A stretch of 64,000 nucleotides of DNA from contig NC_081817.1 in the NCBI RefSeq assembly GCF_030704535.1, positions 4,473,501 through 4,537,500 of the forward strand, given 5' to 3'. The notes below the pieces were generated by a model that did no database searches, was not told the DNA's origin, and saw only the letters and a program-made list of their open reading frames with translations. A program made the position numbers and the translations under genes. Shown piece by piece: positions 5,287-62,702 of this stretch (positions are counted from its first letter, which is position 1; every line of letters begins with the position of its first letter). The DNA comes from Vitis vinifera (Eukaryota > Streptophyta > Magnoliopsida > Vitales > Vitaceae).

Positions 5287-8200
5287 ATGGAGTTTCGGGT
5301 AGGTGCAATGCTACTTGTGGTACTGATATTTCCAACATTGGTTGGGGCCATGGTTCGCCACTACAAGTTCAGTGTAAGTACATCCCTTCATCTTTTCCTT
5401 TACTATTGGTAGATGTTACTATATAGCAGACGAAACATTTGAGACTGAAAGAGGCATGCCCTGCTTCAGGCATAGGCATTGCTTTGTCAATAATAGGCAA
5501 AAGAGGAAAATTATGGCGTTTTGTTGCACATGGCCCTATTCTAAAGGTCTATTCTAAGAGTCATTATTTGGGTGATCCATGTCTGGGTTTAAGAGCGGTA
5601 TTATTGCATTCAACAATTCCTCCCCTAACATGATACTCTTGTGACTCCAACCCATGACCCTTGGCTCATAATTCCAATGGTTGGATCAAGTTTTAACCAT
5701 TTCATCTGAAACCATTTTGAGACTAATATATTGGGTAAATATTGATGTAATAGTACGCCATATATTCCTACCAAAACCTCCAGCCTGAATAAGTCAAATT
5801 TCAAAACTTTTACGAGATATTTGGTTCCCAAAAAGCAAAGAAAGGAAGAACAAATTGAGAAAAATTATTTTTTCGTGTCTAAGTTACAATAAGAAAGGAA
5901 AAAGAAGGTGGTGAACTTGAAGAAACATGAAAAAAATAAGTTATTAATTTTAAATTTATTTATAATATTTTTTTCTATTTTCTTTTCCTTCCATTTCCCC
6001 CTCAATTTTCTAATAACCAAAGATTAGTATACATTCTTCTCCACTTGTATCTAAGTTTTTACTAAGCTCCCCAAAAGTTAATGAAATTTATTGGTGGTGC
6101 ATATATGCAGGTGGTGATGAAGAACACGACAAGGCTTTGTGCAACTAAGCCTATAGTGACTGTGAATGGGCGGTTTCCAGGGCCTAAGCTCTACGCAAGG
6201 GAGGATGACACGGTGATTGTGAGGGTCATCAACCACGTTACCTACAATGTTACCCTCCACTGGTGAGACTTTTATAAGGACTCCTTTTGCTGAACATGGG
6301 TAATAGGGCCATTCTCATGCCCAAGAAACTAGATAAAAAAAAAAAATTGACTACTGGTTTGAGTAGTATGATTTAGCAGAATCGGAGGGAAATGACAATT
6401 TTGTGTGTTTTGGATATGGCAGGCATGGGGTGAAGCAATTGCGGACAGGGTGGTCAGATGGGCCAGCATACGTCACTCAGTGTCCGATTCAACCGGGGCA
6501 AAGCTATATCTATAATTTCACTCTGTCTGGCCAGAGAGGCACCCTTCTTTGGCATGCACACATTTCCTGGCTAAGGGCTACTATGTATGGTGCCATTGTC
6601 ATCTTGCCTAAGCGGGGTGTTCCTTACCCTTTCCCCAAGCCCGATAGAGAAGTTGTTGTCATATTAGGTGAGGTCGAGGTTCTCTCTCATTTGTTCCACT
6701 AACATTGTCTTTGAATTTGAATAAAAAAGAAAGAAAAAAGACAAAAAATAACTGCTTCACCCATTTTCTTCCATTTAAATATTGTTATCTCCTAATTCAA
6801 TAAACCCTCACGATTTTAAAATGTATTTATATAGTTAAAAAAAACTCATACCCGTTACTTGTTCCCCTACATGATGTGAGATATCATATTTTCTCTTAGA
6901 AAAGAAGCTTGTGTATATATATATAGAGCAATTCTCTTAACCACATAAAGTTGACTGATTGGGTCAAAAGTAGATAATATCTATATGAAAGGGAGTGACT
7001 TGTAATGGTTTATGATAGAAAGAAATGAGACCAAATTTGCTTTACAATGATTTTGGTTGTAGAAGGGGTGTAAGCTTGTAGACATCCTCAAATATTTGTT
7101 TTGACTGTCATCTAGTTTGATTGCAGCGAAAACACTTCAAAGAACATGAAATGGGGGTTACAAACTGTCCCTGACAGATTTGCTAAATGCACTTATATTC
7201 TGTGATTATAGGGGAATGGTGGAAGGCGGACGTTGAAGCTGTGATCAACCAGGCTATACAATCCGGTTTGCCACCAAATATATCAGACGCGCACACCATT
7301 AATGGCCATCCAGGCCCCACATCAACTTGCTCTTCTCAGGGTACTGACACCGGGTATACATTGTCTTGTGTTTTTTTTCCAATCCTAATGCCCCCCTCCC
7401 TACCCATTTTTTTCCTCTTTTATCCAGAATTCTTCACCACCCATTCATTTTTGAAAGAAACAACATTTCAATCAGAAAGTATTGAGCTGAAAAATGTTTT
7501 CAACCTGCGTAAACCAGAAAGAAAATCACAAACGATTTTGGAGGAGACAACAGAATTGATAGTGTTGCTACCTATAACTGCATTCTCCCTGATATATATG
7601 AAACCGTGAGCAGGTTATACTTTGAATGTTGAAAGTGGAAAGACCTACATGCTGAGGATCGTCAATGCTGCTGTGAATGATGAGCTGTTTTTCAAGATTT
7701 CTGGCCATCAACTGACCGTTGTGGAGGTGGATGCCATCTATGCCAAGCCCTTCAAAACTGATACCTTATTCATAGCTCCAGGGCAAACCACAAATGCCCT
7801 TTTAACTGCAGATCAAGGCGCTGGCAAGTACTTGGTTGTCGTGTCGCCTTTCATGGATGCTCCTATCCCAGTAGACAACATCACAGGAACTGCTATTTTG
7901 AGCTACACAGGCACCCTTGCTGCTTCCCCTACTGTCCTTACCACCAGCCCTTCTCAAAATGCAACCCAATTAACATCAAGCTTCATGGACTCTCTTAAGA
8001 GCCTCAATTCAAAGCAGTACCCTGCAAATGTGCCATTAGCTATAGACCATTCTCTTCTTTTCACCATTGGTGTTGGGGTCAATCCGTGTTCTACATGCGT
8101 AAATGGGAGCCGCCTTGTGTCCTATATCAACAATGTTACCTTTGTGATGCCAACTACTGGTCTCCTTGAAGCACATTACTATAACATAGGTGGGGTTTTT

Positions 8201-8821
8201 ACTGTTGACTTTCCTGGAAACCCGCTCATTGCCTTCAACTATACTGGCACTCAGCCATCAAATATGCAAACCATGAATGGCACAAGGCTCTACAGATTGG
8301 CCTATAATTCAACAGTTCAAGTTGTGATTCAGGGGACTGCAATGATATCACCAGAGAGCCATCCAACCCATCTTCATGGCTTTGATTTCTATGCAGTTGG
8401 GAGGGGACTAGGGAATTTTGATCCAGTGAATGATCCCAAGAAGTTCAACCTCATTGACCCTATTGCAAGAAACACAATAGGAGTACCATCAGGGGGATGG
8501 ACTGCAATCAGATTCAGGGCAGACAACCCAGGTAGACCTACTGGCCTTATCTTTTTATTTCCTTGTCGTAAGCGGGTAAGGTAAATCAACTGCAAGGACT
8601 AATGGCCAAGCACCAATTATTTCTAACATGACCCTTTACTTTTGTCTTCAAAGAAGCATAAAATTGAGCAATTTCTGATGATGGGTGTAGGTGTGTGGCT
8701 GTTGCATTGTCATTTGGAAGTACACACAACTTGGGGGCTCAAGATGGCCTTTCTGGTGGAGAATGGGAAAGGTCCAAATGAGTCACTTGTACCACCTCCC
8801 TCTGACCTTCCAAAATGTTAG
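5287..8821 (+). CDS. Laccase, LAC4/LAC10-type multicopper oxidase
   Basis: Six exons: 5287-5373, 6111-6262, 6423-6667, 7212-7340, 7614-8531 and 8691-8821. All introns are GT-AG, and the 245-nt and 129-nt third and fourth exons are typical of plant laccases. They join to 553 residues. An N-terminal signal peptide (about residues 1-21, ending LVGA) implies secretion to the cell wall. All copper-ligand motifs are intact: HWHG (H79, H81), HAH (H124, H126), HPTHLHG (454-460) and HCHLEVH (516-522), with Leu527 as the probable axial residue of the type-1 site. N-glycosylation sequons are frequent. Plant laccases oxidise monolignols during lignin polymerisation. The mature start MVRHYKF and the C-terminus PPPSDLPKC resemble Arabidopsis LAC4/LAC10. 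GVWLLHCH replaces the more usual GVWFMHCH. The miR397 target region (7660-7680) is diverged. A DIV-type MYB follows, as in Arabidopsis. Confidence 0.95.
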
Positions 8822-11538: not shown

Positions 11539-11550
11539 GTTGTGGCTAGT

Positions 11551-12843
11551 ATGGAAACTCTCTATCCAGCTTCGCATATATCGACTTCGAATTGGTGGTT
11601 GCAGGACAGCAACAGCACCCTATGGACTAAAGAAGAGAATAAGAGGTTTGAGAGAGCTCTTGCTATTTATGATGAGAACTCTCCGGATCGGTGGTTGAAG
11701 GTGGCGGAAATGATCCCAGGGAAGACTGTGTGGGATGTGATACAGCAGTACAAGATACTGGAAGAAGATGTCAACGATATAGAAGCAGGGATGTTTCCAA
11801 TTCGTGGCTACCTTGCCCCTTCTTTTACACTGGAGTTGGTTGAGAATCGTGGCTTGGATGCGTTAAGAAAGAGGACCGCCACTATGGTTCGAGCTTCTGA
11901 TCAGGAGAGGAAGAAAGGGGTTCCATGGACAGAAGATGAGCACAGGTGAAATCCCTTTGAAACCCATTATTTGGTTGCTGAGAAAACTAGGAAAGAAAAT
12001 ATCATAAATAGTACAAAGAAACTCAACTGCAGTCTAGCTAAATAATTGTGCATGAATTAATTGAGCTGTTTGTTTGATTTTTCTTGTTTCCATTTTTCTG
12101 TGAACCACAAACCCAATAGATAGGAAATAAATTGGTTTGATTGTCTGATTTCATTTCTATGGTGCATTGCCTACTGTAATAATTGCTTTAATTAGAGTGG
12201 GAATTTTAGGTAAGGACTTAATTTTGAACCCATTTAATCATAGCTTTGAATGAAGATCTGATGTGGGTTTGCTGATGGATTGATGTATTTATACCCCTTT
12301 GTACTGTGTGGCTTGAACCTTGAATTCCTTTTTCTGATCCTGCTCTTTGTTCTTGACATGGGTGGTTTGATGATAAACACCAGGCGATTTCTGATGGGTC
12401 TTATAAAGCATGGTAAGGGAGACTGGAGAAACATATCCCGGAATTTTGTAGTATCTAAGACGCCTACTCAAGTAGCCAGCCATGCCCAGAAATACTTCGC
12501 TAGGCAGCTTTCAGGAGGGAAAGATAAGAGGAGGCCGAGCATCCACGACATCACAACGGTCAATCTGACCGACACTACTCCCCCAGAGAACAATAAATCT
12601 CCTTCATTGCATCACTCAACTGCACTTCAGTCGCAGCAGAAGTCCACTGGTGCTCCAAAAGTAATACTGGACTGGGATCATTCCAATGATGGAGCCCTCA
12701 TGGTATTCAATTCGACTCATGGCAATTTGTTCATGCCATCGCCATATGAAGTTGCTTCGTTCGGTACCCATCATGGAGCTCATATTGTACCTCGCAATCC
12801 AGTGTTTCAAATCCAATCTGCAAGACATCAAGTTCGTGGATGA
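11551..12843 (+). CDS. DIVARICATA-like R-R-type MYB transcription factor
   Basis: Two exons, 11551-11945 and 12384-12843, join through gtgaaa/caccag with a split Arg codon to give 284 residues. An N-terminal SANT/MYB repeat begins at [13 protein letters not shown] (about residues 25-70, with [12 protein letters not shown]). A second MYB repeat begins [20 protein letters not shown] (about 122-170) and carries the diagnostic SHAQKYF motif (164-170). The tail is Ser/Thr/His-rich and low in complexity. The family binds I-box-like TATCCA/GATAAG DNA and acts in floral asymmetry, sugar and ABA responses; the exact role here is inferred only at family level. The ATG at 11551 is chosen because the frame upstream has no ATG. 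The two-exon structure with the intron inside the start of the second MYB repeat is usual for this class. Confidence 0.93.
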
Positions 12844-20689: not shown

Positions 20690-23600
20690 CTACAACGTAA
20701 GAAAAGATGCAGGGTCCAAGGGAGTAACAGTACTTGGAAAATCTGTTCTTGGTCCAGCAAGTGAGTAGTATGCAAGTATATGTGCTGGATGCTCGATGGA
20801 CACAGGTTCCCTATCCGGAGCATTAATAGTAACTCCTCTTGAAGGAATTAACTCGATATTCCAGAATGGGCGAGCCATGACTAATAGATCACGGCCTGTT
20901 TCAGATGCTCTATACCCTTGCACCCACAAATACCTCAGTGACGTCAGTTGCATTGCTGCAACAGCCAGTGCACGCTCACTGAAGCAACAGCCCCTCATCT
21001 CTAGTTTTTGCAGGCTAGGGCAACCTCTAGAGAACTCCAAAAGCCCTGCATCTGATTCTCCAACATAACCAAGAAGCATCCATCTAACATTTGGGCTGTA
21101 CTGTCCAATATAATTGAGACCCACATCAGTCAAACCACCTGAACGGAGGTACAGAGCGAATCTTCTAAGCTTTTGGCAACCCCTCAGTAGAGCTCGAACT
21201 CCATTGTCCAATGGCAAATCTGTTATCCTTTCTTCCCGTTCGAGCAAGACGAGGCGAAAATCACATAGCTTTTTTGAGTGAGCACCAATACATTCTAGAG
21301 CAGCATTTGTGATATCGGACACATAAATGGCCACATATTCTATCTCCAGGCATCCCCGAGCCAAAGCCATTAATCCTCTCTGTGAAACTACACCTTCTTC
21401 ATCCTCCATTTCCTGCTCATCAGCACCTCTCTCAATCCTAAGCCTCCTTAATTTTTTACAACTCTGAGCAAGAACTTCTAATCCTCTGTCTCCAATCACG
21501 TTCCTGGCCTGTTAATAAGAATATCAAAATTTTAAAAAGCAAATCTCTTAGTTTTGTTCCCAGTGCAAAGATGAGCATTTTATACACAAGCTATGCAGTG
21601 TACTACTGTATGTCTAAATAATCCCTGCATTTTCTAAATTTTTTCTTCAAGTCTAAATTTGCCAAGATGAAACTTTGTTTATTCAAAATAAGCTATCATA
21701 CCCTTGGACTACACTTTGAATGGTATAAAACACCAATTAGGCAAAGGTAGAGTTGAAAGAAATTAAGAGAAATGATATTGTATTCTATCAAGACATTTTA
21801 TGAACAAAGTGAAACCTAATACACACAAATTTAGCCCCTTGAGGTGAAAAGGGGAAAAAGAAAAAGAAAAAGAAAAAAACCACAACATAATAAAAAAGCA
21901 AGAAATGGTATTGAGATTCTACCTCAAGAAATTCCAAGTTGGGGCACTTTTGAATTAACAGACAATGGTCCTCTGTGTCAAGCAAGCAATAGAGTAGATC
22001 CAACTTTTTAAGTAGGGATGCAAAAGGGAATACTATGGGCATTTCATTCTTCCCCATGTAGTTTAGACCCAGACGGCATAATTTTGGGGGGAACGATACC
22101 GCGGAGTATTTATCTGATTGTTCACTAAAAGAACCCCCAGCAAACTCTTCTAGTGCAGTTGCAGCACGGAAGAAACCAACTAGGTCCAAGATTTCAAAAT
22201 CACTAATTTTCATAGAGGTTAAAGATCGACAATTTCTAGCAATGAGTTCTAGGTCTTCAAATTGGACTGTTGCAAGCTCCGTCATGTAAAAATTCAAAGT
22301 TTCAAGAACTGTATTGTTCATTGCCAGCTCATGGAGCCATTCCCCATCTTTATCCACAATTTGGCTCTCTTCCAAAAACAAGGTTCTTAAATTCCTGAGA
22401 AAGAATAAACAGGATTAAAAATACAGATAGTAAGAAGCATAATAAAAAAGAAAGAAAGCATGCTTAGAATAAGTGAACTGAAAAAAAAAAAAAAAAAAAC
22501 AACTGTCCATCACAGAAAAGGAAAAAGAAAAAGTAACACATATTTGTCCGACATTAAGATGTTTGCATGGGGTGATAATGATATTCACAATGAATCCATG
22601 TAGTAAGAAGATATTCAATGTTAAGTTACCAACTAATGTAGCATGGTTTGATCATGTGCTACCCTATATATGGAACTGAGGAACACATTAACAATGACCT
22701 AAATGAACAGAGTCACAGACCAACATACATTAACCTAACCTAGATTGCATGGTGGCTGGGGACAAAATCACATGAGTCAAAATCAGTACATACAACTCGA
22801 TTCAACAAATCTAATTGTAATCAATTAATGTACATGAGTCCTCAATAGCCCCTCCAATCTATCTAGGGATCTTTTCTGTTAAATTTTAGGTTAGCATGTT
22901 TCCTTCACAACAAGAAGGAACATCTTTTTTGTCCTTTCCCTTGCCACAAAATTATAGAAACAAAATATTAGCAGTGTCTCACATACTATTTCATGAATAC
23001 AAGAGAAGATTTTGAAGGGTATAATGTTTTCAGAAGTACTTTGAATTCTGCTTAGATTGTTAGTTTTGCCTCACAATCTTGTCTAGAGCAACAAATTCAT
23101 GACCTGCTGCAGCCTCTAGACAAGATGATCACCCAATAACTAATGACAAAGACAGTGCTGTTAAAAAGTTGTTGCCATGTTTGGCCTATGGTTTGATAAT
23201 AATTTTCCAGCAGCCTAAAACATCTCCCTGCAGTTCCAACTTATAACTAGCCCTTTTGTTATCATGTGATATGATCATGCTAACCATCAAATGCAGCATG
23301 AAATATCCTATGTTCCTATCGTGGTGAGAACAGCCCAATAACTGCCACTGGGGGGTGCATGAGTCTAAAATGATTATGAACTCTTCAATCTCTTCTTTTA
23401 CTGTTCAAACATAAATTACAGCTCTATTTTGCTGAAATTTTAATCTCTTCTACACAGTATCATCTCCCTATGACACTGTTGTATGCTTTTTATAACAGCC
23501 ATGTAAGTTCTTCACTTCTGTATCTTTAAATCAGTCATGTTATAAAAAAATCTAAGAAAAAATACATAAATCTTTACATCATCCAGTAAAGAAAACAGTT

Positions 23601-25322
23601 TTCATGACTAATCTCTACTTAGTGGAGCTTCAAACATATTCCTTATTCTTACAAAGAGGCATCAGTTTTTTCCTGCCAATATTCCACCAATTTCTTCATC
23701 TTGAAAATGCCAGTTAATATCTTAGTCAACTAAAATGATTCACAATCTCCTCATTGCAATCTAAAATCCCTTAAGCTTCATCTTAAATCAATGATTCATT
23801 AGTTCCATATACCATTTTTTTTATAGGTATTCTTTAGCTCCATTTACCTCAATTCTAAAAAGAAACAAGAAACAAAAAATAGAATAATAATCCCCCATAC
23901 ACAGCCAAACCCCAATTAATATGCCGTTTAATCATAAAGCTGTTGAGTTTCTTCCTTATCAGATATGCTATAGTTTCAAATAACTCTATTCTAAAAGGAT
24001 ACAAGAAAAAGAAAAAGAAAACAAAAATGATCACTAATTGCAAATGTTCCAGAGCACTTTCAATCATATACCCCCTATGCAGTTTTCTTTTAGACAAATG
24101 TCATCTTCTGCAGGGTTTTAATACATTATTTGCTATATCCAGAGATTTCAGAAAAATAATGATGGTCATTAGCATCACCCCATAGTTTCTTTACAAAAAC
24201 ATGGATGTGAAATCAGTGTCTGATATTCTTAAGAAATACTTGATACAATCATCTTACAATCTCACAACAACCCATACAACAAAGAAGCACCCAGATAGGA
24301 GTTTATGAAGTTAGTAAAAAGATCTTCAATTGTTAACTAAAACAAAAATTAAAAACAGAGCTTAGACCAATTTCTTGCATGTGAATAAAGGGAGTGGTTC
24401 AATGACAATTCCAAGCATTCCACAGAAAACATCTGCTCCATGGAAAGGGAACATGATTTTATCCATGATGTCTAAAAACATACAACAGGATTAGTGACGT
24501 AGAATTGCAGATATCAAAACATTATCAGGTTGTATTATTCTCCTCACTAAGAGAGTTCAGACCTTAAAGAGGGCATAATTTTCTTTCATATTCAAATTAA
24601 CTACATTCTTCTCTGTGCACTTCTTTAAAATCCATAAAACAGTGTGCCACAATAAGAAAAACCCACAACGAACCAACATATAAAAACCAAAGGCAGACGT
24701 GACAAAAACTGAATTCAATATTTCTAAAGAATCCAACATTTCTAACCTAACATTCAATCAAACAATATAATTTGATCAACAAAGAATAATCGAATCCAAT
24801 ATGAAGCCAAAACTACCTGCAAGACCGACCCACATGTAGAAGCCCATCTGTGGAAAACCCAGAGCACTTATCGAGTTTAAGCACCAGGAGCACACGTCCC
24901 CGAGCTTGAGCAAGAAGTTGTAAATCGGAATCCTTCACAATCATGCGCCGAAAGTGAAGCGACTTCAAACAATCAAAATAATCTGAGATCTCCTTAACCC
25001 ATGGAGTCACATACCCTCCCCAATCCTCCATTATCAGATTAAACATGGCCGCCCTAGGTTTACCCTTCAATTTTAGGGATTCAAGATGCGGAAACCTCCC
25101 CCTTAATCGACCAGGAGTGGTCGTGTAGCACAAAGCAATTGTAATATGTTTCCTCGTCAACGCATCCAGCTCGTACCATCTACGGCACACTAGAGAGACC
25201 GCATCACGGTCCTTCGGGTCGTGAATATATGGCATCACACAATTCAGAACCTCATCAGACATTCCCCGATCCGCCATATCAAGCATTTCACGACTCACCT
25301 TTCTCTCGTTTCCATCCTCCAT
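20690..25322 (-). CDS. COI1: COI1 jasmonate receptor F-box protein
   Basis: Three exons on the minus strand: 25322-24817, 22394-21923 and 21508-20690, giving 598 residues. The introns are 2422 and 414 nt, both GT-AG, at the positions usual for COI1. The protein is the F-box/leucine-rich-repeat subunit of the SCF-COI1 ubiquitin ligase. It binds jasmonoyl-isoleucine with inositol phosphate and JAZ repressors in the nucleus and marks JAZ for degradation. The N-terminal F-box lies in about residues 21-62 (DEVLNCVMPYI, SLVCRRWYELD). LRRs fill the rest. Hormone-pocket segments are present: KGKPRAAMFNL (86-96), IERGADEQ, CDFRLVLL, QYSPNVRWMLLGYVG and RYLWVQGYRAS. The C-terminus keeps EHPAHILAYYSLAGPRTD. 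Similarity to Arabidopsis COI1 runs over the full length with no break. The start at 25322 (MEDGNERK) aligns with known COI1; the upstream in-frame extension lacks an ATG. Confidence 0.98.
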
Positions 25323-25795
25323 ATCCAAAAACAAGAACCTCCCAACAAATCGACGAATTGACACTTTCGGGCTCAACAACAGAACAAATTTAAAATTTTG
25401 ACTACATAAAACTCTTTGTTTCTTGTATCAAAAAGTTAGTTCGGATTCCAAACCGAACTCAAGAGCAGCGATTAATCAAGTCAACAAGTACAAACACCGA
25501 TCCTCTCTAGATCAGCTAAAAACCTTCAATCTCAAAGTGAAAAGAACTCGAAAATGAACTTTGAAAAGGAAAAAAACAACCAGAAAAAACAAAGATTCGA
25601 ATCTGCTAATCGAAAAACAACGTCCAAAACGGATCTGAAACTCAACGCTTCACATCATAGCTCCCAATCAAATTTCAATAAAACCGAAAGTTTTCTCAAA
25701 GTTTTCTCAAAAGCCGCAAGAAGAAAACTATTTTCAATAAACTCTCCGAAATTAACGCGTTTGGAACACGAAACTCAACCGAATCGGATCGGAGG

Positions 25796-47526: not shown

Positions 47527-48621
47527 ATGGGGATTGCAAAGTTCAATGTAGAAAAGTTTACGGGCAAAAATGATTTCGGGTTATGGAGACTAAAGATGAG
47601 GGCATTGTTGGTTCAACAAGAGCTCCAAGATGCCCTACTTGGAGAGAAAAACCTGCCCAGTACCATGCAAGAAAAGCAGAAAATAGAGTTGTTGGAGGAA
47701 ACTCATAGTGCTATCATTCTTTCTTTAGGTGATACTATGCTGAGAGAGGTGGCCAAAGCAAAGTTTGCAGCTGAGTTGTGGCTCAAGCTTGAGAGCCTAT
47801 ACATGACCAAGTCATTAGCAAACCGATTACATAAGAAGATCAAGTTATATACATTTAAGATGACCCTGGATATGTCAATTGAAGAGCATCTTGATCACTT
47901 CAATAAGATAATCTTGGATTTGGAAAATATTGATATCGCAGTATCAGATAAAGATAAAGCAATTTTGTTACTGACTTCTTTAGATGCACTATATACTAAT
48001 ATGAAAGAAGCCATAATGTATGGGAGAGATAGCCTGATCTTTGACGAGGTGCAGTCCATTTTGCATGCTAGAGAATTACAGAAACAAGAAGAATCCAAAG
48101 AGGAGTTGGGTGAGGGTTTAAACATCAGGGGCAAATCTGAAAAACGAGAAAAGAAGGGCAATAATTCAAAATCTAGATCAAAATCCAGGACCAAGAAGTT
48201 CAAGTGTTTTATTTGTCACAAGGAAGGACATTTCAAGAAGGATTGCCCGGATAAGAGACAAAACACAATAAAAAAAACCATGAATGAGGGTAATGCTGCT
48301 GTGATTTTGGATGGATATGACAGTGTTGAGGTGCTAAATGTGGCAGAAGTGGACTCGGGCAAGGAGTGGATACTTGATTCAAGGTGCTCTTTTCGCATGT
48401 GTCCTATCAAAGCTTGGTTTGAAGACTTTAAAGAAGCTGATGGAGGTCATGTCCTGCTGGGTAATAATAAACATTGCAAGATTCTTGGTACTGGTACCGT
48501 TAGGATCAAGCACTATGAAGGCATTGAAAGAGTTCTTGAAGATGTCAGGTATATACCCGAGTTAAAAGGAACCTTATCTCACTTGGAATGCTGTACAAGT
48601 CAGGATATACATTCAAGTTAG
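47527..48621 (+). pseudogene. Copia GAG and protease region (broken)
   Basis: An open frame of 364 codons starting ATG 27 nt after the 5' LTR. The first 200 residues are the UBN2/copia GAG fold (FTGKNDFGLWRLKMRALL). A zinc knuckle of CX2CX4HX4C form follows (CFICHKEGHFKKDC, about residues 229-242). The aspartic protease begins at WILDSR, where the family has DSG; the active-site Gly is replaced by Arg. The frame is lost near 48565 by an indel, and reading continues in another frame, so polyprotein synthesis would stop here. Confidence 0.9.
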
Positions 48622-49440
48622 AACCTAACTCTTTGAGAGTGGCTAGAGGTTCATTTACTGTCATGAAATGGACAATAAAAAATGGGTTGTATACTCTTAT
48701 AGGCCAGACTATGACAAACAAAGTTTCTACTGTGCTGAAGGAGGATGTGGGGACAACCAAGCTATGGTATTAGAGGTTTGGTCACATCAGCCATAGGAGA
48801 CTACAAGAGCTGGAGAAGCAAGGGGTGTTGGGAAACTACAAGCTGACACATTTGCCTTTTTATGAACATTGTGTGTTTGGCAAGGCTACAAGGGTGAAGT
48901 TTGCCAAAGCAGTACATGAAACACAAAACCAGCTGGACTACATACACTCTGACTTGTGGGGACCATCACAAGTACCGTCGATAGGTGGAGCAAGGTACTT
49001 CTTAACTCTTATTGATGATTACTCTAGGAAAGTGTGGATTTATTTTCTTAAAAATAAAAATGAGACCTTCCTAAAGTTCAAAGAGTGGAAAATTGTAGTT
49101 GAAACTCAAGTAGGCAGAAAAGTGAAGAAGTTGAGAATAGATAATGGGCTTGAATTCCTATCAAATGATTTTAATTCATTTTATCAAAAGGAAGGCCTAG
49201 CTACACATAGAACTATCAGATATACATTTCAACAAAATGGTCTAGCTAAGCGCATGAATAGGACCATTTTGGAAAGGGTGAGATGCATGCTGTCAAGTTC
49301 AAGGTTGCCAAAGGTTTTTTGAGCTGAGGCTATAGAAACAATTGTCCATTTGATCAACAAGAGCCCATCATCAGCATTACAATTCAAAACCCCTCAAGGA
49401 AAGTGGACTAAGAAAGCTGCAGATATCAATATCTCAAAGT
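48588..49440 (+). pseudogene. Copia integrase region (broken)
   Basis: In the shifted frame, GAG-pre-integrase and integrase core sequence is readable. A nonsense codon at 48771-48773 interrupts the pre-integrase HHCC region. The first two catalytic Asp are seen in HSDLWGPS and RIDNGLEF. The third catalytic position, Glu in the conserved QNG..ER motif, is Lys here (GLAKRMNRT). A TGA at 49320-49322 and a frameshift near 49.4 kb follow. The integrase would be inactive even without the stops. Confidence 0.88.
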
Positions 49441-49510
49441 TTTTGGGTGCACAACTTATGTACACACCAAAACAGATAAGTTAGAACCACAGGTTGTAAA
49501 ATGTATTTTC

Positions 49511-51076
49511 TTGGGGTATCTGAAAGGAGTTAAAGGTTACAAGTTGTGGATAGAAACACAAGGCAAAGGGAAGTGTATAATTAGCAGAAATGTAACTTTT
49601 AATGAGCAAGATATGCTAAAACAAACTCTAACAAAAGATATGGAAGGGTTAGATCAGTTACAATTTGAGGTGGAGCATGAGACTTTGCAACCTGAAAAGT
49701 CTAAAGAGACTTCATCAAAGACAGTTCAAGAAGAAATTGTACGTGAAAGACAAGATGAACCAACTCAAGGGCTGGAATCCTATAGTCTGGCAAGAGACAA
49801 GCAGAAAAGACAAGTCAAACCTCCCAAGAGATATGGCCAAGTTGAGATGACAACATTTGCATTGAGTGTAGCTGAAGAAATAGTGGATATGGAGCCAAAA
49901 ACATACCAAGAAGCCATCAATAGCAATGAGGCTGATCAATGGGTAAAAGCTATATAAAAGGAGATGGATTCCTTAAAGAAAAATGAGACTTGGGAATTGG
50001 TCACTAAACCCAAGGACCAAAAGGTTGTCAAAAGAAAGCAAGGGACACTAGGGAATGAGGCTCCAAGGTACAAGGCAAGGTTGGTGGCTAAGGGGTTTTC
50101 ACAAAAGGAGGGTGTTGACCACAATGAGATATTATCTCTTGTAGTTAAACACAGTTCAATCCGATTGTTATTGGCTTTTGTAGCTCATGAAGACTTGGAG
50201 TTGGATCAACTAGATGTGAAGATAACATTCTTGCATGGAAAACTTGATGAGCTAATTTATATGCAACCACCCGAAGGTTTTGGGGAAGGAATCAAGGATG
50301 GTCAGGTATGTTTACTTAAGAAATCTCTTTATGGCCTAAATCAATCACCTAGGCAATGGTATAAGAGATTTGATAAGTACATGCTAGATATTAGTTTCAA
50401 TCGGAGCAGCTATGATGGATGTGTATATTTTAAGCTAACTGAAAACAGCATGATATATCTTTTACTATATGTGGATGACATGTTGGTGGCATGTAAGGAG
50501 AAAAAACACTTGGAGCTGGTCAAAGAGATGCTTAAGGATGAATTTGAAATCAAAGATCTTGGTTTAGCCAAGAGGATTTTGGGAATGAAGATAGAAAGAG
50601 ACAGGAGCAAAAGGGTATTTAGGCTTTCTCAAAAGTCATACATCTCAAAGGTACTAAGCAGATTTGAGATGAATAATGTAAAGACAATGAGTACTCCTCT
50701 AGGACAACATTTTAAACTTTCCATAACACAAGCACCTGAGACTCATGAAGAGAAAAGGTTTATGGAAAGGATACTTTATGCTAGCATGGTGGGTAGTGTG
50801 ATGTACACTATGGTGTGTTCTTGGCCTGATCTTGCATATGCGGTTAGCATGATAAGTAGATACATGAGCTGCCTTGGAAAGCCACATTGGCAAGTAGTAA
50901 AGTGGCTTTTTCAATACTTAGCTAGTACTAGAAGCTTGGGGCTGGTTTATGGAGGTAATAGTCAGTTGGGAACTCAGTTACAAGGGTTTGTAGATGCTGA
51001 TTATGCTGGGAACATTGACACCAGAAAGTCTCTTACTGGATATGTATTCACAATGTTTGGAAGAGCAGTGAGCTAG
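49511..51076 (+). pseudogene. Copia reverse transcriptase region (broken)
   Basis: An acidic linker is followed, after a TAA at 49955-49957, by the RVT_2 reverse transcriptase from about 49964. The catalytic YVDDM motif and the LKKSLYGLNQSPRQWY segment are intact. The reading frame runs through the connection domain into RNase H (FVDADYAG), then hits TAG at 51074-51076. The frame is the same as that of the following RNase H part. Confidence 0.9.
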
Positions 51077-55994: not shown

Positions 55995-58900
55995 TCACTT
56001 GTTCTTTTTAGGTTCTCTTGCATAATCATTTATTAGTCCTTCAACGTCTTTCCAGAACAGGCCCTCCACCAAAATTCCGTCTGTGGTGAACCTGCAAAAT
56101 TATTGACAATAGAGAATGTAAACGGGTACAAAATTGCTGCACAAAGAATTACTTAAGCAATAATAATATGAAGTACAATATGTGTATGAGTATGAGCCAC
56201 AGGGATAGGGAGGGAGGGAGAAAGAGACCACTGGGTGACGCTTTTAGTAAACTCTACTGGGTCCTTTGCAGCCTTTGATTTTGGGTCTGCACTTGCTATG
56301 GAAAGTGTGTACAAATCAGAGAATCTTGGCAGCTTGGAAGAGACCACCAAACCTGTGCTGTTAAAGAACCCCTGCACAAATGAATTACAGCTAAGAGAAC
56401 TCCGTAATCTGAAGTTTCTGACGGTTGATCAGTATCCACATGCATAACAAAAGTTGACAGTCAGCTAAGATAATGGAAACATGAACCAATGTCTCTAGTA
56501 CTACAAGAAGTTCAACATGTCAGACCACACAAAATAGAATGTCTGAAGTTCCTGCCTACAGGCATTCATAAGCAAGACAATTTAGGTGTCATATCTACGA
56601 AATGATTACTCATGAAGGAGCATCATTGAGCCTTTTCCTAGGAAAGAACAAATGGAGAAAGCAATTTTTTTCCTTCTAGAGATGGAAAAGCCAGGAAAAA
56701 AATGTATTTAGAAAAAGCAATGAAATGGAGCTCCAAATGTGGACTAACAGAATGAAATAAGAAGCAATGAGCTGGGTCCAAAATATGTGGGAATGAGACA
56801 GATTAAGAGTCCGTTTGACAGTGACTTTGAGAAGTGTTTCTAGTATTTTTAATACTTGAAAAATAAAAATTTTCAAGTGTTAGCAAGGCTAAAAATACTT
56901 CTCATAATCACCGTCAAACGCACTCTAAGAGTATTTGGTAGTAATTTTAGGAAGCACTTCTAACCTTGTTAGCACTTGAAAATTTTTATCAAAAAAGTTA
57001 TTTTCAAGTATTAGAAAGCTAGAACCGTTTTCTAAAATCATAGCCAAACAAGTTTTAAGAGTGGGCTTGACAAAGTTAAAGTGTTTTTAGTAGAAATGTT
57101 TTCTCCAAAAATGTTTTATGGTGGATCATCTGGTGAAGCATTACAAGTGATTTTTGAACTTTTTTAAAAGTGTTTTTTAAATTCTATCGAACATTTGACT
57201 TTTCTTCAAAAACACTTTTTATGCTAGAATTGCTTTCTAAAAGCACTACCAAACGGACTCTAACATTGGTTGTTCCTCCAATGAATAATTTGGACTAGAT
57301 TTGGCAGACCCAGGGGATTGAGATATTAAAGATCTATCACAATATTTACTGTGCTAAAACGGTATATTTCCAAGGAACAGATAACACATTCCAACCCAAT
57401 TTCATAACACATACTAAAGGTTCCTTCCAAAATGAAAGCTGTCAATTCATGTGGTTGGATTCATAAGAGCACAAAGGAGGGCTACACACCCATGCCTATT
57501 AAAGTTTTCCCATCCTACGGATTACTAGAATTCAGGAAAAGTGTAACAAAAAGAATGCATAAAAAAATGGCTTACATATCAGGCTCAAGCCACTGGAAAA
57601 CAATTGAATCAAGAGCTAAATTCCTCACCCCTGTTGGGGTGAACTTTGCTTGTTAAGGTAAGACGAAGGCAAAAAGTGTTTTGGAGGGAAATAAGCACAG
57701 TGGGAAAAATGCTTCTTTTGTAATCTTTCCACCATTTGTCCCTATGAAAGATCAAAGAGAAGTGAGATGCAATCCCCATAACCAAAGCCAAATGCATAAG
57801 AAAAGACAGGGTTTCAAGGATTTCCCTTTCATTTGTTCCATCCCTATTTAGCTCAAAGAGTGGCATTTTACCTTCCTTTCTTTTGGTATGTAGAAGGGTT
57901 GAATTTGAAAAGACAAGGTATGGGATGAGAGTCAAGAAGAAACAAATAAGCCACCAAGTTAAGTCACCAAACAAAATAAACTTAAGATCTTCAATAGGCA
58001 TTTGAAAAGAATGGAGCATGGAACTGCCCAAGAAGTTCCCAGTTATACACATTGGCTGTCACAAGATTGTTGCTAGATTCAGCAGTATCAAAAAACAATC
58101 CAAAAAGAGAAAAGTTCAAGTCAGTGTGACATCTCAACTTGTTACAAATGTATCTATCAGCTCCAGGCATCAGAAAGACCAAATTCTAATATCTGGGTTA
58201 CTGAAAAGTTTTTAGAGACCCAAAGATGATGGGTCTCACCTCTTCTTATTTTCTTCCTAGTGTCTCTCTTTCTGTGTTTCACAATTCTCCACCACCGCTG
58301 CACAACCCCAACCCCCCCTCCCCCCAACCAAAATAAATAAAAACAAAATAAGAAAGAATTTAATGTACATAGCACACTCATGTGTCCCATTTTCCTCTCC
58401 TCCCCTCAATCACTTCCGAAAACTTCTGTCTCCAAACTCCCTAAAATTGCATCTACAGATACATTATAGAAACTCATGGGTATGAATCAGCAAAGAAACA
58501 TATTTTACAACAAAACAACCAAAACACAAGTTGTCCAACAACATGAATGGCCCACTTTTCAAGAAATGCATAGATAGGATCCATCAGCCGAGGGATGCTA
58601 AAATCTCCCATCCCAATGTCTGGGACCAACTTCATAGCTTTTTGCCTTCAATTCATTCAGGCATTTAGAATTAAAAAAATCCTTAAACATGCTATGTTTA
58701 ATTTTAAAAAATAAAATAAGATATCTAAGCTGATAATATCACTCCAAAGTTTCTTATTTGCCAAGACATCAAATCCATAATGTGAATCATGAATACATTC
58801 TGTAGCAACAAGACAGCCACAACCAAACTTTCCACTTGAAATAGAGAAGGAAAAAGGAAAAAGGAAGAAGGAAAAAATTACAAAAATAAAAAATAAAAGG

Positions 58901-60550
58901 AACTTACTTCAGGAGGATGGGTAAACAGGATTGCATTCTTTTCCTTTGTGTATATGATCAACTGCAACAGCCCATTGAAGAGGATATACTTGCCAGCGTC
59001 AAAGATCAAACATATTTTGATAGATAATCAGACACATTTTATAAAAAGTAGGGCCAAAAAAGGCATTCCAAAGTCCGTTGGATGTACACAAAGAAACATC
59101 TCAAGACAACACAAAAACAAAGAGGAACACCATCAACAGCCCCCTTAGCCCGAACCCAACCACTCTACAAAGTCTACAAAGGAAAGAGGACTACAAACTA
59201 TGTACAACTTGCACCAGGCCCAAATATTACAAATGAAGAAGAATTTCAACCCTTGAATCAATTGTCCCTCATTGTCAAATGTCCTACTATTTTTTTTCCT
59301 TCCAAACAGTCCAAAAAAGGCATAAAGGAGCAGCCCGCCACACCTATTTCCTTTTCTTACCCACAAAAAAACCACGTCATCCTAACAAAGCCACTGTAAC
59401 CGAGGAAGGGAGCACCCATGACACACCCAAAAGAGAGAACAATAAATTATAGTAGTTCTATGGAAAGCAACATCAGGAACACATTATGTCCATGCAGTTG
59501 GATGAGGCATCATTTGTTGTCATGTAAATTAGTAAGCTCATAATACAGCAGAATCCGCACACCTGCAAACTGATATTTTCCCAGAAAGATGTTTTGGGAT
59601 ATCATTTCCAGAATCTAGTTCCCAAACACTGAGGCTATGTTTGGTTCCTGAAAAGTTAAAAGGAAAAGAAAATGCCAAAGAAAATAATTTTTTCATGTTT
59701 GGTTTTACTGCAGAAAAAAAATCAAATATAATTAAAATTAGTTAAAGATTTATACATTTGAAAATTCTTCAATCTTTATATAAGAGAAATGAGTTTGGAA
59801 AACCATATAAAATAATTTATTAATTTTAAATCTATTTTTTATTTTCTTTCACTTTTTCGTTTCTCCCACTTTTCCTTCCTAGTTTCTTTCCCCATATTTT
59901 CCCTCAGATTATCCGGAACCAAACATAGCCTAAACCAAACATTCATATAACATCCAACCAAAATTTCAATTCATTTACCAAAAGCCAAGTTACTGGTCTC
60001 TGTCCTTCTCCTACCTTTTCTCACAAACTAAATAGACCTTGAGCAGCAAAAGAAAATCAAAATCAAACAAACCACGCAGCAAAAAGGATATAATAAGATG
60101 CAAACAATCAGAAAATCTCGATTCTCAGGAAACTTCTTCGGGTAAAATTGTGCCACGAGTGCAATGATAATGATGATCGACCCCATCAACAACCTCACAT
60201 TGCTCATCCTCACATCTTCCACATATCCACGACTCGTCACGATCTACAGCAGAAAAAGAAACCCAAAAGAAAAAAAAAACAACAACAAACCACATAGATC
60301 AAGACAGATACAACTAAACTTATGTTTACTGCGAAAACGCGAAAAGAAAATACAAGAAAACTCAAAATCAAACAGTGGATCGATATTCCCCTATGAGATT
60401 GAAAACTCAAGTTCAGTTCGGGGAATTACTAGGGTTAAGGTTTCGTTTTACCTCGGAGACGTACTCGTCAAGGATGTGTTTGATGGAGTGGTGATCTAAG
60501 AGATTGGCCTTTTTAGGGTTTTTGTTGGAGTTATTGTTGTTGCTGGCCAT
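55995..60550 (-). CDS. SPC25: Signal peptidase complex subunit 2 (SPC25 / SPCS2)
   Basis: Five exons on the minus strand: 60550-60452, 60243-60092, 58989-58908, 56371-56229 and 56091-55995, giving 190 residues, close to the 192 of the Arabidopsis protein as I recall it. It is a non-catalytic subunit of the ER signal peptidase complex that removes signal peptides co-translationally. KKANLLDHHSIKHILDE lies in the cytosolic N-terminus. Two membrane segments follow (about 51-67, LLMGSIIIIIALVAQF; about 76-97). The C-terminal part has STGLVVSSKLPRFSD and VEGLFWKDVE, then a basic PKKNK tail. Introns 1, 3 and 4 are GT-AG. Intron 2 (60091-58990) begins ATATCCTTT and is U12-type, splitting a Leu codon at residue 84. 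Intron 4-5 spacing is short, while intron 3 (58907-56372) holds nested MITEs. The start at 60550 aligns with known homologues. Confidence 0.95.
56804..57263. mobile_element. Cluster of three CCGTTTG-ended palindromic MITEs
   Basis: Within SPC25 intron 3, three inverted-repeat units lie end to end: about 56804-56928, 56926-57062 and 57058-57263. The outermost ends AGAGTCCGTTTGACAGTG and CACTACCAAACGGACTCT are inverted repeats. Each unit also has its own ends (for example CACCGTCAAACGCACTCTA; GTATTTGGTAGTAATTTTAG with AAAATCATAGCCAAAC). A diverged single copy lies at 61261-61383. Confidence 0.7.
59633..59930. mobile_element. Tourist-like MITE inside the U12-type intron of SPC25
   Basis: 298 bp with perfect 16-bp inverted ends GGCTATGTTTGGTTCC and GGAACCAAACATAGCC. 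Flanks are TGA and TAA, an imperfect 3-bp target duplication. The interior is AT-rich, with a CAAATATAATTAAAATTAG block shared with the related elements at 43239 and 46158. Confidence 0.8.
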
Positions 60551-61998: not shown

Positions 61999-62211
61999 GT
62001 CATGTTTGGTTCCAAAAATATTAAAAAAAAAAAAGGAACACTTATATAATTTTAATTTATTTAATCATTATATAATAAAGGGAAATAAGTATAACGAGTT
62101 TAAAAATACAAACAAAAATAATTTATTAAGTTTAAATCTATTTTTTTTTCCTTTTTTTTTTTTTCCCTCAACTCCTTTTTCCTTCAAATGTTCTAAAAAC
62201 CAAACATAGCC
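61999..62211. mobile_element. Tourist-like MITE
   Basis: Ends GTCATGTTTGGTTCC and AACCAAACATAGC are inverted repeats like those of the element at 59633-59930. The flanks read TTAA on the left and TTAA on the right, so the exact 3-bp duplication frame (TTA or TAA) is ambiguous. Confidence 0.65.
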
Positions 62212-62702
62212 TTAATAACATAACCTTAATTTTCCTAATTTTTCGAAAACATACTGTGAACCAGTACAAACATATTTTGCACATCATCTTTACATCTTCA
62301 TTATTTTCTATATGTTCAAAAGCAGAAAAAACTGCTCATCCTCACCAGCAAAAGAAGACATCTAGATCGGACACTTTGGGCTTGGTCAGTTTTAAAATGT
62401 ACACCAGACCCTAGTCTTTATTTCAACCTACAACATTAGTAATGCAACAAAAAAGGATCAGTGTGCAACAAACTGAAGGCGATCATTACACCCTGTAATT
62501 ACCATCGTGAAATACATTTCATCAAAATATCAGGGGCGTCTAAAAAATCACATTATTCCCAAGAAAATCATCTAGTATCCTATTATTTTGGGATGTAAAG
62601 CCTGCAAGCATAGGGGGCTTATGATTTTAAATGAGCAGAGAAATTTCAAGCAATGTTGAGCTTGGGTTGTTTGTTCTACATATAACACAATCTTCTATCA
62701 GA

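Follow-up and report, generated by a model that had tools for sequence, protein, structure and literature searches.

The terminal pair AT-AA is reported as the commonest non-canonical terminus of minor introns in animals and plants (PMC10639083). In plants, it accounts for almost 75% of the non-canonical minor introns, which are in turn about 4% of the orthologous (conserved) minor introns in that survey, and the product of the two figures, calculated here, is ~3% of orthologous plant minor introns. Smaller shares come from another database (PMC7367187, Table 2), where 'other' ends were listed for 1.1% of the U12 introns of Arabidopsis, 1.2% of those of maize, 3.8% of those of rice, and 0 of those of soybean. 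According to the same source, most U2-type introns with an odd end in their annotation are conventional introns that have been misplaced (PMC7367187), which is a caution against an AT-AA reading. Non-canonical ends support U12 splicing, often at reduced efficiency, and AT-AG combinations are described as disfavoured (PMC3584512). AT-AA is also listed among the A-type (AT-AN) minor introns, a class whose members mostly require CENATAC in human cells (PMC8280824).

Human SPCS2 contains a U12-type intron, numbered intron 3, which is spliced by the U12 machinery (PMC3958305, PMC11039992) and mis-spliced in patients with RNPC3 mutations (PMC3958305). The locus analyzed here lies in a Vitis vinifera window (the whole stretch of DNA analyzed, 64,000 nucleotides) and belongs to the same gene family, and its candidate minor-spliceosome intron is number 2. 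Its AT donor and terminal AA are those of the plant U12-type AT-AA introns (PMC10639083), and they fit the A-type, CENATAC-dependent class, which has an AT donor and a variable last base (PMC8280824). That dependence was described in human cells, whereas the counterpart for intron 2 is the presence of a CCDC84/CENATAC family gene in the genome. The main text of the AT-AA survey (PMC10639083) contains no mention of Vitis, and no plant SPC25 was named as a U12 gene among the literature matches listed, supplements and databases being outside the scope. The AT-AA kind is uncommon but already known and catalogued in plants, and intron 2 of SPC25/SPCS2 is probably a new example. An earlier reading of the same DNA (the original prediction), which had called intron 2 an AT-AA minor-spliceosome intron, is probably correct; its remark that such ends are rare holds in absolute terms, but not among the non-canonical minor introns of plants (PMC10639083).

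Host gene

The minus-strand gene at 60550-55995 has five exons and a 190-aa product. The product scored 139.4 bits (cut-off 24.3) against PF06703 (microsomal signal peptidase 25 kDa subunit), covering profile positions 2-159 of 159. Two distinct solved sequences were similar to it, exemplified by 7p2p_C and 9rjb_C; each carries the name signal peptidase complex subunit 2. By homology, the gene is identified as encoding SPC25/SPCS2, a subunit of the signal peptidase complex, the enzyme by which secreted proteins are trimmed. We take 7p2p to be the human complex and At2g39960 to be the Arabidopsis SPC25 gene. The kinetochore protein Spc25 (PF08234), which shares the name, is located on another contig. 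The coding exons and intron 2 are as follows:

60452..60550, minus strand, coding exon 1, 99 nt, followed by the donor GTAAAACGAA (joins scan; PF06703)
60092..60243, minus strand, coding exon 2, 152 nt, ending ...CATCTTATT within codon 84
58990..60091, minus strand, intron 2, 1102 nt, phase 2, AT-AA termini, putatively U12-type (frame, donor, acceptor scan)
58908..58989, minus strand, coding exon 3, 82 nt, beginning G-TAT-ATC, followed by the donor GTAAGT
56229..56371, minus strand, coding exon 4, 143 nt, followed by the weak donor GTCTCT
55995..56091, minus strand, coding exon 5, 97 nt, stop codon included

Introns 1, 3, and 4 are GT-AG introns (GTAAAA...CTGTAG, GTAAGT...GTGCAG, and GTCTCT...TTGCAG, respectively). 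The weak U2-type donor of intron 4, TG/GTCTCT, is at 56223-56228 on the minus strand. The product was searched against its own genome (495.6 Mb, 21 contigs; best 7 candidates scored, E up to 0.1). All five matches were parts of the one SPC25/SPCS2 gene, and thus neither a second copy nor a retrocopy was found among the best 7 candidates scored.

Position and reading frame of intron 2

Intron 2 reads ATATCCTTTTT...ATCTTTGACGCTGGCAA and is 1102 nt long. Read along the minus strand, the last letters of exon 2 are CATCTTATT, up to 60092, and the intron starts with ATATCCTTTTTG at 60091; the intron ends with ACGCTGGCAA at 58990 and exon 3 starts with GTATATCC at 58989. The original prediction had the coordinates (60091-58990) and letters right. 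It had also placed the start of the downstream exon at G-TAT-ATC with a Leu84-Tyr85 junction, and this is correct because 83 whole codons and 2 nt precede the intron. The terminal bases are:

58990..58991, minus strand, terminal AA of intron 2, the next base being the G of exon 3 (AA/G)

In a scan of joins, the donor was allowed to lie up to 60 nt upstream or 150 nt downstream of the proposed one, and the acceptor up to 150 nt upstream or 60 nt downstream. The frame stayed open in 3,929 of the 44,521 joins tried, and five yielded the same 190-aa protein (AT-AA, TA-AG, AT-GT, TC-TA, and CC-AT). AT-AA is the only one of these that keeps the U12 donor in register; GT-AG, AT-AC, and AT-AG ends do not occur among the five. 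Since it was the AT-AA join that had supplied the 190-aa reference protein, the joins were tested against outside evidence, namely PF06703 and the solved SPCS2. The AT-AA product scored 139.4 bits, compared with 117.7-134.7 bits for the five alternative joins scored (4.7 to 21.7 lower): 130.8 (with a YPFCC insert), 119.4, and 117.7 for GT-AG joins, and 134.7 (AT-AC) and 128.0 (AT-AG) for joins with unrelated donors. The margin over the AT-AC join with an unrelated donor, only 4.7 bits, counts against the AT-AA reading. The solved SPCS2 sequences (e.g. 7p2p_C) align ungapped over the intron 2 junction.

Twelve GT-AG joins were open within the scanned ranges; they were rejected, as none (0/12) gave 190 aa and the three scored lose 8.6 to 21.7 bits. 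The AT-AC join that gives 190 aa uses a donor at 60099 (ATCTTATT) which is not a U12 donor, and it was rejected with its 134.7 bits.

With the donor fixed at 60091, 19 acceptor positions were examined, spanning -1 to 17 nt relative to the branch A. The AT-AA end, 9 nt past the branch A, was the sole acceptor giving 190 aa. Other in-frame ends gave longer (AT-GA 193, AT-GC 192, AT-GG 191 aa) or shorter products (AT-TA at 12 nt, 189 aa; AT-AT at 15 nt, 188 aa), and the remaining 13 of the 19 stopped early, including AT-AG after 93 aa and AT-AC after 96 aa. The prediction that ending at AC or AAG with the same donor breaks the frame is thereby borne out. The AC used with the 60091 donor in that AT-AC end, which was likewise rejected, ends at 58998, directly after the branch A, where it presumably cannot serve as a 3' end. 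The AT-AA end of intron 2 is dictated by the reading frame, and its last base would follow from homology together with the frame.

Donor and branch site

60081..60091, minus strand, U12-type 5' splice site ATATCCTTTTT (consensus match; 8-nt pairing with U11 and U6atac)
58998..59006, minus strand, branch-site-like ATCTTTGAC, branch A at 58999, 9 nt from the intron end

The donor matches the published U12-type consensus ATATCCTT (PMC2831892) at 8/8 positions, in agreement with the perfect donor originally claimed. Motif density was rejected as evidence: the window shows no significant enrichment of RTATCCTTT (6 matches vs 2.57 expected; 6/100 shuffles reach 6). ATATCCTTT was found at 4/127,984 positions (window, both strands), the intron 2 donor included. 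As five junctions keep the protein, the chance of it falling on one of these positions is ~1.6e-4 by a post hoc estimate. In the window, the donor motif by itself is nothing unusual, and its place is the unlikely part.

The branch-site-like ATCTTTGAC agrees with TTCCTTRAY at 7/9 positions, better than any other 9-mer that begins within the final 60 nt of the intron, which accords with the near-consensus motif predicted about 9 nt before the junction. By chance, 9-mers with at most two mismatches to TTCCTTRAY occurred 7-20 nt upstream of 1,691/18,230 sampled positions (9%), and 8-mers with at most one mismatch to TCCTTRAY at 434/18,230 (2.4%). The branch motif is weak evidence because chance supplies it at 2-9% of positions, and alone it would not convince. 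After the branch A, AA ends at 9 nt, AG at 10 nt, and an in-frame AT at 15 nt; no usable AC was found within 17 nt (19 acceptor positions). The best branch-to-end distance for U12-type introns is 11-13 nt (PMC3584512), and the 9 nt of intron 2 are below this optimum, although a base or two may be due to the way of counting. A distinct polypyrimidine tract is not a feature of U12-type introns. Pyrimidines make up 10/17 bases before the end of intron 2, as in introns 3 and 4 (10/17 each), and 13/17 in intron 1.

Minor spliceosome in the same genome

Matches over the cut-off were obtained for U12 (2), U6atac (8), and U11 (2) in the same genome, and these predicted genes indicate that the host possesses a minor spliceosome. 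U4atac gave 0 matches there, in a search without a positive control. An 8-nt pairing (7 Watson-Crick) is possible between the intron 2 donor and the 5' end of both U11 matches (ATCCTTTT), and one of equal length (7 Watson-Crick) between the donor and 2/8 U6atac matches, the two that were tried (TCCTTTTT). The branch site ATCTTTGAC pairs over 6 bp with both U12 matches, including two G-U pairs, where a consensus site would pair over 9. The donor is regarded as strong and the branch site as weak because of these pairing lengths (8 nt with U11 and U6atac vs 6 bp with U12). The CCDC84/CENATAC family (PF14968) is represented in the genome by three matching stretches on one contig.

Alternative readings of the junction

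Intron 2 of SPC25/SPCS2 is best read as a U12-type (minor-spliceosome) intron with AT-AA ends, to which we assign a probability of about 0.86, in agreement with the original prediction. The frame, the PF06703 score, the ungapped fit to the solved SPCS2, the donor register, the acceptor scan, the snRNA and CCDC84/CENATAC family genes with the donor pairing, the U12 intron of human SPCS2, and the standing of AT-AA in plants speak for it. Removal of TA-AG one base downstream (60090-58989) gives, as had been foreseen and as the joins scan confirmed, the identical protein, with codon TTA, and has the usual AG end. Such an intron would start with TATCC, and therefore the U12 donor motif and the U11 and U6atac pairing would be one base out of register; to our knowledge, TA is not an accepted donor dinucleotide, which also counts against this join, and we consider it extremely unlikely. 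A U2-type GT-AG join from the donor TGC/GTGGTT at 60075 to the acceptor GGCAAG at 58989 is very unlikely. It keeps an open frame (195 aa), adding five residues (YPFCC) in a membrane segment, and its acceptor is preceded by as many pyrimidines (10/17) as those of introns 3 and 4. We take GTGGTT to be far from the U2 consensus, which counts against the join; weakness alone would not disqualify a U2 donor, because the intron 4 donor of the same gene, GTCTCT, is also weak. The PF06703 score falls from 139.4 to 130.8 bits with the insertion, the solved SPCS2 has no insertion at the junction, and the perfect U12 donor located 16 nt upstream would need to be a coincidence.

The intron might also be U12-type with another 3' end: either AT-AG, with its stop after 93 aa, would make up much or most of the product, or the intron would be AT-AT with its last base at 58984 (188 aa). 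The AG and the in-frame AT lie 10 and 15 nt past the branch A, and U12 splicing tolerates non-canonical ends (PMC3584512). However, AT-AG destroys the SPC25/SPCS2 protein and belongs to the disfavoured combinations (PMC3584512), AT-AT is near absent in plants (PMC10639083), and its use would remove two residues from the stretch that aligns gap-free to the solved SPCS2. These ends together are highly improbable.

Proposed splicing mechanism

In the AT-AA reading, U11 and then U6atac would base-pair with the strong ATATCCTTTTT donor, and U12 would pair weakly with ATCTTTGAC. The 3' splice site would be picked mainly through its short distance from the branch A, and the cut would fall after AA, 9 nt past the branch A, because there is no usable AC within 17 nt. 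TT would then be joined to G, giving codon TTG (Leu84). Splicing of the transcript in this way is what we infer from the letters, frame, homology, snRNA genes, and pairing potential.

A regulatory role can be imagined. AA/G could act as a built-in one-base tandem acceptor, in which AT-AA leads to the protein and an AT-AG slip or retention to a truncated frame; the weak branch site and the A-type ends would then let CENATAC and minor-spliceosome activity set the amount of the signal peptidase complex, in plants as in people. The truncated frames from the slip or from retention are 93 and 104 aa, with further introns downstream in the gene. We regard this role as doubtful and give it little chance.

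Sequence surroundings

Intron 2 contains an element that we would call MITE-like:

59632..59931, no strand assigned, MITE-like element within intron 2, 23-nt inverted repeats (AGGCTATGTTTGGTTCC type), 91% complementary, 254 nt apart

Upstream of SPC25/SPCS2, at about 62000-62212, similar ends (ggctatgtttggttttt ... ggaaccaaacatga, as read on the minus strand) were noticed by eye, and this stretch is possibly a relative of the intron 2 element. Elsewhere in the window, also judged by eye, a four-ORF run at 47527-51076 (plus strand) resembles a Copia-type retrotransposon (gag zinc knuckle, integrase, reverse transcriptase). ORFs at 20690-25379 (minus strand) resemble an LRR F-box protein of the COI1 kind, and those at 7622-8584 and 11542-12843 (both plus strand) resemble a laccase and a DIVARICATA-type MYB, respectively.

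Implications

Intron 2 of SPC25/SPCS2 makes a clean case: the genome search gave no second copy, and the frame dictates the non-canonical 3' end. Gene finders that demand GT-AG or AT-AC ends would be expected to misplace exon 3. If intron 2 and the U12 intron of human SPCS2 interrupt the same codon, plants and animals would have one more minor intron in common.
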